In this document: positions 19,596 through 22,666 of the stretch, piece by piece
How positions within the stretch are numbered: position 1 is the stretch's first letter
Layout of the letters: each line of letters opens with the position of its first letter
Assembly (NCBI GenBank): GCA_905233645.1
Contig: CAJODZ010000002.1
Span: 2,665 to 41,773, forward strand
DNA: 39,109 nt
DNA from: an uncultured Synergistales bacterium
GTDB lineage: Bacteria > Synergistota > Synergistia > Synergistales > Aminobacteriaceae
Direction of reading: 5' to 3'
The notes under the pieces: model-generated
What the model saw: the letters and a program-made list of their open reading frames with translations, nothing else
Databases searched by the model: none
What the model was told of the DNA's origin: nothing
Position numbers and translations under genes: made by a program

Positions 19596-20309
19596 TTAAA
19601 TAAACTTTCCAATCAACAACGAAAATGCAATCAAATACACTAACGCCGGAAGCATATCGCATAATTTTAATTTGGTGATTTTTAATAAATTTGTACCTAT
19701 CGCAATAATCATAAGTCCGCCCAACCCTGATATATCGTTAAATAATTCTTGTGTTATAAGTGGTTCAACACATGACGCAACCAACGTAAACGCACCTTGA
19801 TAAATTAACAGAGCTAACGCCGAAAAAAATACTCCAACTCCGAAAGAGCCTGCGAATAAAATTGACATTATGCCGTCCATAAGCCCTTTAGTCATTAAAA
19901 GCGATGGATCGTGTCTTATTCCGTCGTTGAACGCACCAATAATACCCATAGAACCTACACAAAATAATAATGTCGATGTTACAAAACCGTCAGTAAATTT
20001 TGAATTTGACGAATGTAATTTTGCTTTGATTAAATCACCGAGATTATTTAATTTAAAATCAAGATTAAAAATTTCGCCGGTGACAGTTCCAAAAACAAGA
20101 CACAACAAAACAATAATATTATTTTGCATTTTAAGAGCCATGTTTACGCCAACATAAATCGTAAAAAGACCCATGCAATTAAAAATAGTTGTACTCATTT
20201 TTTCAGGAACAAATCGACCAACCGCCATACCGATTAAACTCCCAAGTATGACGGCCAAACAGTTAAAAACAGTTCCTCCGGCAGGAATATTGCTAAAGAT
20301 GTTAAACAT
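19596..20309 (-). CDS. DUF554 family membrane protein (YdfK/YqgA-like)
   Basis: This is a polytopic inner-membrane protein of unknown function. The 237 residues have about seven hydrophobic segments. Family features are the start GGTVFNCLAVILGSLIGMAVGR, the repeated small-residue turns, GSMGIIGAFNDG in the middle and GLGGLMIIAIGTNLL near the end. It is the last gene of the minus-strand run gpmA, aminotransferase, rpn pair. DUF554 proteins are sometimes guessed to be transporters, but nothing here proves it. Confidence 0.85.
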   Translation of the reverse strand: MFNIFSNIPAGGTVFNCLAVILGSLIGMAVGRFVPEKMSTTIFNCMGLFTIYVGVNMALKMQNNIIVLLCLVFGTVTGEIFNLDFKLNNLGDLIKAKLHSSNSKFTDGFVTSTLLFCVGSMGIIGAFNDGIRHDPSLLMTKGLMDGIMSILFAGSFGVGVFFSALALLIYQGAFTLVASCVEPLITQELFNDISGLGGLMIIAIGTNLLKITKLKLCDMLPALVYLIAFSLLIGKFI

Positions 20310-20327: not shown

Positions 20328-20549
20328 TTAGGCTTTATTTAAATTCAATGACTGTGCAAGCTCCTGAAGTTTAACAATCGTTAAACCTGTAGCTTCAGCA
20401 ATCTCGCTAAGTGTCATTTTTCCTGATTTAATCAGTTTTGTTGCAATGTTCAACGCACCTTGAGCAATGCCCTGAGTAATACCTTGCGTGACACCTTCAG
20501 CTCTGCCCTTTTGTACAAGTTGTTCTGAAAAACTAATCAAATCGACCAT
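20328..20549 (-). CDS. Stand-alone copy of the Rpn C-terminal domain (possible antitoxin)
   Basis: The 73-residue protein repeats the last ~73 residues of the neighbouring nuclease. It has SFSEQLVQKGRAEG, then xTQG four-residue repeats (three here, four in the large protein), and a helical MTLSEIAEATGL motif resembling a small helix-turn-helix. GAGG in the last codons of the large gene is its ribosome site, and its ATG lies 2 bases after the large stop, so translation is coupled. It differs at many codons, so it is maintained rather than a fresh duplicate. In known Rpn systems a short C-terminal product made from an internal start blocks the nuclease; here the short form appears to have its own gene. 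This role is inference. Confidence 0.6.
   Translation of the reverse strand: MVDLISFSEQLVQKGRAEGVTQGITQGIAQGALNIATKLIKSGKMTLSEIAEATGLTIVKLQELAQSLNLNKA
20493..20534. repeat. 42-base direct repeat shared by the two Rpn ORFs, copy 1
   Basis: These 42 bases are identical to 20729-20770. They encode the SFSEQLVQKGRAEG segment of both the small and the large protein. Confidence 0.9.
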
Positions 20550-20551
20550 GA

Positions 20552-21418
20552 TTAACCTCGCTCTAGTTTTAGTGATTTTGATGTGTCTTGAAGTTTAGTA
20601 ATCGTTAGACCTGTAGCTTCGGCAATTTCGTTAAGTGTCATTTTGCCTGATTTAATAAGTTTCGTTGCAACGTCTAAGACACCTTGAGCAATACCCTGAG
20701 TAATACCTTGTGTGATACCTTCAGCGATACCTTCAGCTCTGCCCTTTTGTACAAGTTGTTCTGAAAAACTGGCCAACTCTTTAACCTCCCATTTATCACT
20801 CTTTAAAAATCCTGCACGCTCCCTTAACGCATTATAAAACATTTTAGATGCTGACCTCGCAAAAAAATCACTCATCAATTTCCCAATAGGCGTTTTATCG
20901 TTGCGTAATGCTCCATTGACATAAATTATGTGCGTGCCGTCATTAACAGGTTCGTTCGTTTCGTCTATGTGTCTATGAATTGTGTATAACGGCAAATTCT
21001 TTTTAAATACATCGTGTTCCGTTATAAAAATTACATAGTTGTCGTGAAGCTCTTTAAAATTTTCATTCGCCTGTAAAGAGTTTACATCAATCATCGCACT
21101 ATGATAACGCGCACGCTTGATATTTGCTCCGTCGTTTGAACGTTGAATTTCTATATCGTATTGTTTTCCGGCATCATCAACAGCATACACATCAAAGCAA
21201 ACAGAACGTCCCCAAAATGTTAATTTTTCCTGAGTTTTAGAGCTTATAACTTTTAAATCGGGCTTATCTAAAATTACCTGAAGGATTGTCTCTACACAAG
21301 GGATATCCTCCAGGCATTTATTCATGAAAATATCATCAATTATTCGCATATTTTGGACTAAATCAAAACTCTCTTGCGATAGTCCGTAATATGCTGCATC
21401 GTGAATTTGTTCAGGCAT
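20552..21418 (-). CDS. Rpn family PD-(D/E)XK nuclease / putative transposase
   Basis: Rpn proteins are DNA endonucleases linked to recombination and phage defence. Residues of about 20-200 form the nuclease domain. The PD-(D/E)XK core is seen as Asp76 (VCFDVY) followed by Glu90-x-Gln92 (YDIEIQ), the usual Rpn variant of the motif. HSAMID and NYVIFITEHDVF are further family features. The C-terminal part (216-288) has tandem GIxxG four-residue repeats and a helical tail, which is duplicated as the next gene. The start ATG 21418 lies 9 bases after the aminotransferase stop without a ribosome site, so it is probably coupled. The 288 residues appear intact. Confidence 0.85.
   Translation of the reverse strand: MPEQIHDAAYYGLSQESFDLVQNMRIIDDIFMNKCLEDIPCVETILQVILDKPDLKVISSKTQEKLTFWGRSVCFDVYAVDDAGKQYDIEIQRSNDGANIKRARYHSAMIDVNSLQANENFKELHDNYVIFITEHDVFKKNLPLYTIHRHIDETNEPVNDGTHIIYVNGALRNDKTPIGKLMSDFFARSASKMFYNALRERAGFLKSDKWEVKELASFSEQLVQKGRAEGIAEGITQGITQGIAQGVLDVATKLIKSGKMTLNEIAEATGLTITKLQDTSKSLKLERG
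20729..20770. repeat. 42-base direct repeat shared by the two Rpn ORFs, copy 2
   Basis: These 42 bases are identical to 20493-20534. Recombination between the two copies would delete 236 bases and fuse the large protein to the tail of the small one. Confidence 0.9.
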
Positions 21419-21427
21419 ATTTAGTTA

Positions 21428-22636
21428 TTAAGCTTTGATTGCCTCAACACGTCCCGGATAAGCTTCAACAGCGTGCTTTAAAATATTTAATGCCTTCTCT
21501 AAATCCTCTTTTTTCAAAACATAGGCCATACGCATCTCATTTATCCCATGTTCGGGATTTGCGTAAAAACCATTTCCGGGCGCAGCCATTGTCGTCTCAC
21601 CGTTGATATCAAAATTCTGTAACATCCAGATTATGAATTTTTCGGCACTGTCAACAGGTAATTTAGCCATAGTATAAAACGCACCTTTAGGCTCATGACA
21701 AATTACACCATCAATCGCTTTTAAGCCTTTGTATAAAACATCACGGCGCAATTTATATTCTTGATTAACTTCCTGTAAATAGCTCTTCGGTGTTTTATAT
21801 AATCCAACGGCCGCAAATTGTTCAAGTGCTGAAACGCATAAACGTCCCTGACATAATTTCATAACTTGCGCTAAAAATTCCTTGTTCTTAATCGCAATAC
21901 AACCTATACGCGCACCGCAAACACTGTAACGCTTTGAAACTGAGTCAATCATAATTACACGGTCTAATGCGTCTGTTAAATGCCCAAAGCTCATAAATTC
22001 ATCGGCTTCGTAAACAAATTCACGGTAAACTTCATCGGCAATTATAAAAATATCATGCTTCTTAGCTAAACGCGCTAACATTTGAATTTCATCGGGCGTG
22101 TAAATTGCTCCGGTCGGGTTGCATGGGTGTGAAATCCAAATTGCACGGGTACGGGAATTTATTAAACTTTCAATTACGCTTTCAGCCGGTAAGTGAAATC
22201 CTGTCTCTGCTTTCGTAGGAATTGGCGTTAATTTTGCTAAAGACAATTTTGCAAAAGTGTTGTAATTCGCGTAAAAAGGTTCAGGAATTAAAATCTCATC
22301 GCCTGGATCGCACAAAATATTTACAGCAAACGATAACGCTTCGCTACCGCCGGCAGTTATAAAAATTTCGTTCGGCTCATAAGGAATATTCCACGACTTA
22401 TAATAATTGCTCATGGCCTCACGTAACTCAGGAATACCCTGTGAGACAGCATAAGCTACTGTATGAGGGTGAAATTGTTTTATAGTCTCGAAATATTCAT
22501 CAGGTGTTTTAATATCAGGCTGCCCAATGTTCAAGTGATAAACTTTTTTCCCTTTAGCCTTCGCCTCATCAGCATAAGGGATTAAGCGTCTTATTGGTGA
22601 AATTTTTAACGCCTGTATTCTGTCTGAAAAATGCAT
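21428..22636 (-). CDS. PLP-dependent aminotransferase, class I/II
   Basis: It transfers amino groups between amino acids and 2-oxo acids using pyridoxal phosphate. Visible features are NIGQPDIKTP near the N-terminus, SHPCNPTGAIYT, ADEVYREF, and the PLP lysine in DSVSKRYSVCGARIG. A frame open to 22663 is longer, but the GGAGG ribosome site lies inside that extension. I start at ATG 22636 (Met-His-Phe-Ser), giving 402 residues. The final family segment is MRMAYVL. The exact substrate (aspartate, alanine or aromatic) cannot be decided. It lies directly downstream of gpmA. Confidence 0.88.
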   Translation of the reverse strand: MHFSDRIQALKISPIRRLIPYADEAKAKGKKVYHLNIGQPDIKTPDEYFETIKQFHPHTVAYAVSQGIPELREAMSNYYKSWNIPYEPNEIFITAGGSEALSFAVNILCDPGDEILIPEPFYANYNTFAKLSLAKLTPIPTKAETGFHLPAESVIESLINSRTRAIWISHPCNPTGAIYTPDEIQMLARLAKKHDIFIIADEVYREFVYEADEFMSFGHLTDALDRVIMIDSVSKRYSVCGARIGCIAIKNKEFLAQVMKLCQGRLCVSALEQFAAVGLYKTPKSYLQEVNQEYKLRRDVLYKGLKAIDGVICHEPKGAFYTMAKLPVDSAEKFIIWMLQNFDINGETTMAAPGNGFYANPEHGINEMRMAYVLKKEDLEKALNILKHAVEAYPGRVEAIKA

Positions 22637-22666
22637 TTTAAAAATGACCTCCGTTAATTTCAAAAA

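Follow-up and report, generated by a model that had tools for sequence, protein, structure and literature searches.

In the window analysed here, the whole stretch of 39,109 nucleotides, the small ORF directly behind a gene for an Rpn-family nuclease is a real, selected and recurrent separate RpnS gene, of a kind already known. A separate downstream RpnS gene has indeed been reported in E. coli (Zhong et al., 2023, PMC10327210), and the kind as such is not novel. The value added by the present work lies in the pattern of mismatch between the repeat numbers of nuclease and copy, in the unit of duplication, which runs from a Shine-Dalgarno (SD) sequence to a stop codon, and in the tandem arrays.

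The nuclease gene and the copy of its tail

The larger gene, rpnL (21418..20552, minus strand), is an ORF of 288 amino acids for an Rpn-family PD-(D/E)XK nuclease. In profile searches its protein matched TIGR01784 (COG5464, Rpn family; E 2.5e-20, 73.4 bits versus a cutoff of 52.1) and PF12784 (3e-9, 37.4 bits versus a cutoff of 27.4), and the catalytic residues D76/E90/Q92 are intact, as they are in 98-99% of 152 homologues. The AF2 model (pLDDT 92) displays an alpha/beta, PD-(D/E)XK-like core and a three-helical C-terminal domain, in which two short helices (262-269 and 273-287) follow a helix of 49 residues (209-257). The closest solved folds to the whole model were, in a fold search, the PD-(D/E)XK enzymes EcoT38I, EndoMS and EcoO109I, all of them weak matches, the best in the PDB being the restriction enzyme EcoT38I (E 1.6e-3, TM 0.28). 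A sequence search among solved structures returned no RpnS relative. The tail repeats of rpnL relatives vary by 4 amino acids, as in an Rpn C-terminal domain with variable repeats. The C-terminal domain also resembles weakly the PADLOC candidate C3a178, a "putative invertase" (E 2.7e-6 for 20552-21418 and 1e-4 for 20328-20549); this family may be a mis-named RpnS-type family. This weak match was the only link of the pair to anti-phage defence systems.

Within rpnL, GGGAGGTTAAAGAG-TTG is found directly before the tail, that is to say a strong SD (GGGAGG, 20785..20790, minus strand), 8 nt and an in-frame TTG (20774..20776). At the sequence level, rpnL thus carries the internal SD and in-frame start of an RpnL/RpnS gene. 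This TTG is the predicted start of an intragenic rpnS of 74 amino acids (residues 215-288; 20555..20776, minus strand), which coincides with the C-terminal domain as delimited by the AF2 secondary structure and by the internal SD and start. According to the tail alignment, this tail contains the five repeats RAEG IAEG ITQG ITQG IAQG (20681..20740).

The downstream gene (20549..20328, minus strand) encodes a 73-residue copy of this domain. The sequence-only reading had described it as repeating the nuclease tail with a 42-base identical stretch, as starting 2 bases after the nuclease stop and as having its own ribosome site just before that stop, within the nuclease gene, all of which was confirmed. 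Indeed, 55 of 70 residues (79%) are identical in the two tails, with a single 4-residue gap within the xxxG repeats, and the longest exact DNA match is of 42 bases (20770-20729 in rpnL, 20534-20493 in the small gene). The small protein matches TIGR01784 by the C-terminal end of the model only (positions 223-272, E 1.7e-6). Its ATG (20549) stands 2 bases past the rpnL stop TAA (20554-20552), which separates it from its SD, GAGG (20559-20556), located in the last rpnL codons; GAGGTTAA there is shared with the region of the internal SD. The small gene is preceded by GAGGTTAATC-ATG, the TAA within GAGGTTAATC being, in the other frame, the stop of rpnL. The small gene has an SD, a start and a separate ORF with homology to the tail of the gene before it, and thus corresponds to a separate downstream RpnS gene of the ypaA type. 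What the earlier reading did not record, and is added here, is the difference of one repeat between the two tails, since the small gene has only RAEG VTQG ITQG IAQG (20457..20504). The 3' ends of the pair have diverged, and the tail of the syntenic orthologue in genome G025 is more similar to the small gene (score 101) than to the rpnL tail (87); this slight proximity fits an older 3' end carried by the small gene.

The pair lies between a gene for a class I/II aminotransferase (21428..22663, minus strand; PF00155, 4.8e-53), 9 bp before rpnL, and one for a DUF554 membrane protein (19596..20309, minus strand; PF04474, 2.7e-74), 18 bp past the small gene. The aminotransferase ORF is called from a TTG, but translation may really begin nine codons further on, at an ATG in the same frame (MHFSDRIQ...). 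No SD was evident, as read from the sequence, in AATAACTAAATATG ahead of the rpnL ATG, so that the small products may outnumber the nuclease; in E. coli, small Rpn products do exceed the nuclease (Zhong et al., 2023, PMC10327210). A promoter scan was uninformative, with 18 sites versus 13.5 in shuffled sequences.

The duplicated cistron and its recurrence

The limits of homology between nuclease gene and copy point to the unit that was duplicated. Among close pairs of the order, DNA homology starts at the SD in L167 (AGGAGG), L041 (GGAGAGAGCGCAATG), L046 (AAGGAGAGC) and L064, and at the start codon in L123 and L096, and its 3' limit is the stop codon in many pairs. In K-12 E. coli, an identical AAAGGAGAGATTAATG is present both in rpnE and before ypaA. 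Homology from the internal SD or start to the stop thus designates the intragenic rpnS cistron, including its ribosome site, as the duplicated unit.

Internal starts were evaluated in 152 homologues as an SD of at least 5 nt with an in-frame start, the null being synonymous-codon shuffles. Such sites were found at 60-80 and 80-100 amino acids from the C-terminal end in 14/32 and 11/32 of the genes followed by a copy (null 5.8+-2.1 and 4.2+-1.3), and in 28/120 and 27/120 of the genes without one (null 14.5+-2.8 and 13.8+-2.8), with no excess over shuffles farther upstream, 140-240 amino acids from the C-terminal end, in the 152 homologues. Enrichment in both groups indicates that the downstream copy adds to the intragenic antitoxin and does not replace it; a scenario in which the antitoxin moved out and the internal start was lost is thereby ruled out. 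The proposal that the antitoxin had become an independent gene holds as regards a separately encoded duplicate of the RpnS-type domain, but not as regards a replacement, the GGGAGG (20790-20785) and TTG (20776) of rpnL having been kept. It is new that the copied unit is, to judge from these sequence limits, the internal cistron, and that rpnL retains its own internal SD and start, so that the antitoxin would have been copied, not relocated. This provides a clear example of a gene within a gene copied into an independent gene with its own ribosome site.

The arrangement is by no means confined to the window. We gathered 166 distinct Rpn genes from the order, 152 of which have at least 400 bases of downstream sequence and constitute the denominator. 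A downstream tail-like ORF with a score of at least 100 was present in 32/152, whereas the controls gave 0-4 when the tails were permuted, 0 when the reverse strand was searched and 1 when the DNA upstream was; the search of homologues for the large-plus-small arrangement, called for by the sequence-only reading, thus revealed its recurrence. At a looser threshold, 40 such ORFs were found, two of them being second full-length genes. The best match of a copy was its own nuclease in 29/37 cases, including the window copy, and its own array in 2/37, a pattern of repeated local duplication, as sequence comparison reveals it here and as Zhong et al. (2023, PMC10327210) reported it for rpnC and rpnE of E. 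coli. Three tandem tails are present in L167, three in L096 and two in L126. In L167 (G005:C62), helix 1 of the successive tails differs from that of the nuclease by 0/-4/-12 residues, with the same AGGAGG spacer before each copy; in L096 (G019:C91), it differs by -8/-4/-12. Recurrence within the order, with up to three tandem copies, is a new observation. The copy of L166 (G005:C20) is peculiar in that its helix 1 is 40 amino acids longer than that of the nuclease, with units like AEDFAKDFAQSF and not xxxG repeats.

A search of the contigs of the window's own genome, which is 80% complete, matched a single other Rpn tail, distant (37%), on C43. We therefore found no partner for the small protein as the antitoxin of another Rpn nuclease of the same genome.

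Repeat number, turnover and selection

We consider it moderately probable, on the basis of the sequences compared, that this is an Rpn toxin-antitoxin locus in which the intragenic antitoxin cistron was duplicated, the copy being both an RpnS of altered specificity and a tail donor. The cistron, with its internal SD, its start and its C-terminal domain, would have been duplicated in tandem, so that the nuclease gene contains one copy and is followed by the other. The RpnS produced from the internal start, being matched to the nuclease, would hold it in check, and the downstream copy, translated in coupling with the nuclease, would constitute a second RpnS, dimerising via the long helix 1. This second RpnS would no longer fit the window nuclease in helix length, and would exert a weak action on it or none. 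It would persist as an antitoxin of other specificity, directed at earlier or newly arriving Rpn variants, and may also serve as a donor, recombination replacing the nuclease tail and altering its repeat number. Several points speak against this explanation: the internal start, TTG, is a weaker codon, the repeat rule discussed below was shown for one protein, the copy-less states of relatives could be ancestral, and mismatch is no commoner than between homologous nucleases.

Mismatch as the rule, in close pairs and in E. coli pairs, is a new observation. Helix 1 is of unequal length in 17/20 close pairs and equal in 3/20; 18 of the 22 gaps in these pairs are multiples of 4 amino acids, and the copy is shorter in 14 pairs and longer in 3. 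In E. coli, repeat numbers differ in 7/7 distinct rpnE/ypaA pairs and in 7/7 distinct rpnC/rpnCS pairs (14/14). As a control, tails of separate homologous nucleases of similar identity had equal helix lengths in 6/26 pairs, and random pairing of the E. coli partners would be expected to give 0.57 and 0.14 matches, so that the mismatch observed there is as random. Matching at the frequency of homologous nucleases and of random pairing indicates that it is not maintained; it does not demonstrate that mismatch is favoured. The idea that mismatch is selected for is accordingly unsupported (3/20 versus 6/26 matched, with E. coli as in random pairing).

This bears directly on whether the downstream protein is a dedicated, cognate antitoxin of the window nuclease in a two-gene toxin-antitoxin operon, which we regard as rather unlikely. 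In line with such a role are the 79% identity, the coupling, the coding constraint and the known inhibition of an RpnL by its RpnS (Zhong et al., 2023, PMC10327210). In RpnC, however, one repeat added to either partner abolishes inhibition, which is restored when it is added to both (Zhong et al., 2023, PMC10327210). By this rule of equal 4-residue repeat number, which rests on one protein, RpnC, a cognate antitoxin is not what the window encodes, the small protein having one repeat fewer. If the rule is general, the window copy would not be a working antitoxin of the adjoining nuclease, and, to judge from the data published on E. coli, the adjoining nuclease is probably not silenced by it. 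The retention of an internal start in the nuclease gene, the low number of matched pairs (3/20 close ones, 0/14 distinct E. coli ones) and the existence of the G025 nuclease without a copy also argue against a cognate role. From the operonic two-gene toxin-antitoxin proposed earlier, apparent coupling and coding constraint can thus be kept, but a matched antitoxin is unsupported, the protein being one repeat short.

The copies also turn over. The earlier reading had held that absence or frameshift of the small ORF in close relatives would tell against it, and this was partly what we found. The syntenic orthologue of G025 (aminotransferase - Rpn - DUF554) has the nuclease and no small ORF. Three species of the genus share a homologous locus, at which G031 has the nuclease and an intact copy, G065 (L052) the nuclease and a frameshifted copy behind the same spacer as in G031, and G010 the nuclease alone; the 3' end and repeat number of this G010 nuclease are those of the G031 copy, and the flank behind it is also that of the copy. 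Absence in G025 and frameshift in G065, another species, indicate that the small ORF is dispensable and turns over. The apparent frameshifts in the downstream tail copies of L201 (G107) and L052 (G065) may reflect either decay or errors of MAG assembly. In E. coli, the copy-less rpnE alleles L298 and L299 carry the C-terminus and 3' end of the copy, and fusions have also been described (Zhong et al., 2023, PMC10327210). The G010 and E. coli copy-less alleles fit, by their sequences, a recombination between tail and copy; these copy-less states could instead be ancestral.

Tail replacement, as it appears to have occurred in E. coli and in G010, together with tandem arrays of differing repeat numbers (L167, L096), would also be in line with a silent DNA cassette, that is, a recombination donor constrained solely by its cycling through the nuclease gene, which we consider unlikely. 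Indeed, E. coli does produce the ypaA protein (Zhong et al., 2023, PMC10327210), and the copies retain their SD, start, frame and translatable position; the SDs would, however, also be expected in a silent cassette, because the nuclease gene requires them internally.

The pattern of substitution indicates that the copies have been maintained as coding sequence. With free decay of the copy, the ratio for a pair would be expected to rise to about 0.5 or more, whereas the window pair gives dS 0.47, dN 0.13 and a ratio of 0.28, in line with the earlier suggestion that the small ORF is selected. The 20 close pairs, when pooled, give pS 0.294, pN 0.079 and a pN/pS of about 0.27. Such low ratios could also be produced by gene conversion or by cycling through the nuclease gene. 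It is very unlikely that the copy is a decaying fragment left by a recent tandem duplication without selection, in spite of the G025 and G065 states and of the pseudogene labels given by RefSeq to the E. coli copies, since long-diverged copies (dS about 1) also remain open and SDs are kept in most of them.

Comparison with known systems

An altered-specificity RpnS that doubles as tail donor, the explanation preferred above for the window, may have a wider bearing. The role of the separate RpnS genes of E. coli had been left open, and rpnE/ypaA and rpnC/rpnCS show the same mismatch as the window pair. The published repeat rule predicts no inhibition of the neighbouring nucleases by the downstream proteins; either it does not apply generally, or the copies act otherwise, through another specificity or through tail switching. 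We suggest, more tentatively, that downstream RpnS genes are in general mismatched, non-cognate spare tails, present singly or as two or three in tandem, which provide immunity to other Rpn variants and a switch of tail and partner in one recombination step; E. coli and this distant order would then share a specificity-switching defence locus. Polymorphic toxin systems, in which arrays of related, non-matching orphan immunity genes follow the toxin gene, offer an analogy only, without homology. The E. coli ypaA alleles (L289:7817-8002, L290-L297 and L300) are RefSeq pseudogenes, mostly "missing N-terminus", although the protein was detected by Zhong et al. Annotation probably misses many stand-alone RpnS genes elsewhere too.

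Zhong et al. (2023, PMC10327210) described RpnL/RpnS and, in E. coli, RpnS genes encoded separately downstream, ypaA after rpnE and rpnCS after rpnC; they found ypaA to be expressed, with its protein detected, and RpnP2 to protect E. coli against phage. The window nuclease shares with RpnA, RpnB and RpnP2, which have intragenic RpnL/RpnS, the N-terminal PD-(D/E)XK nuclease, the internal start and the helix with 4-residue repeats, but no separate downstream copy is described for those genes. The rpnC-rpnCS pair has, like the window pair, a separate downstream tail gene, with repeats unmatched in all 7 distinct alleles; it differs from the window in its longer spacer (about 65-120 bp) and in the diverged N-terminus of the copy. 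In rpnE-ypaA, as in the window, a separate copy of the C-terminal domain stands directly behind the nuclease and starts at the duplicated internal SD, and the repeat numbers differ. The window pair, by contrast, belongs to a distant lineage and lies between the aminotransferase and DUF554 genes, and the catalytic residues of its nuclease are intact, whereas K-12 RpnE is annotated as inactive.
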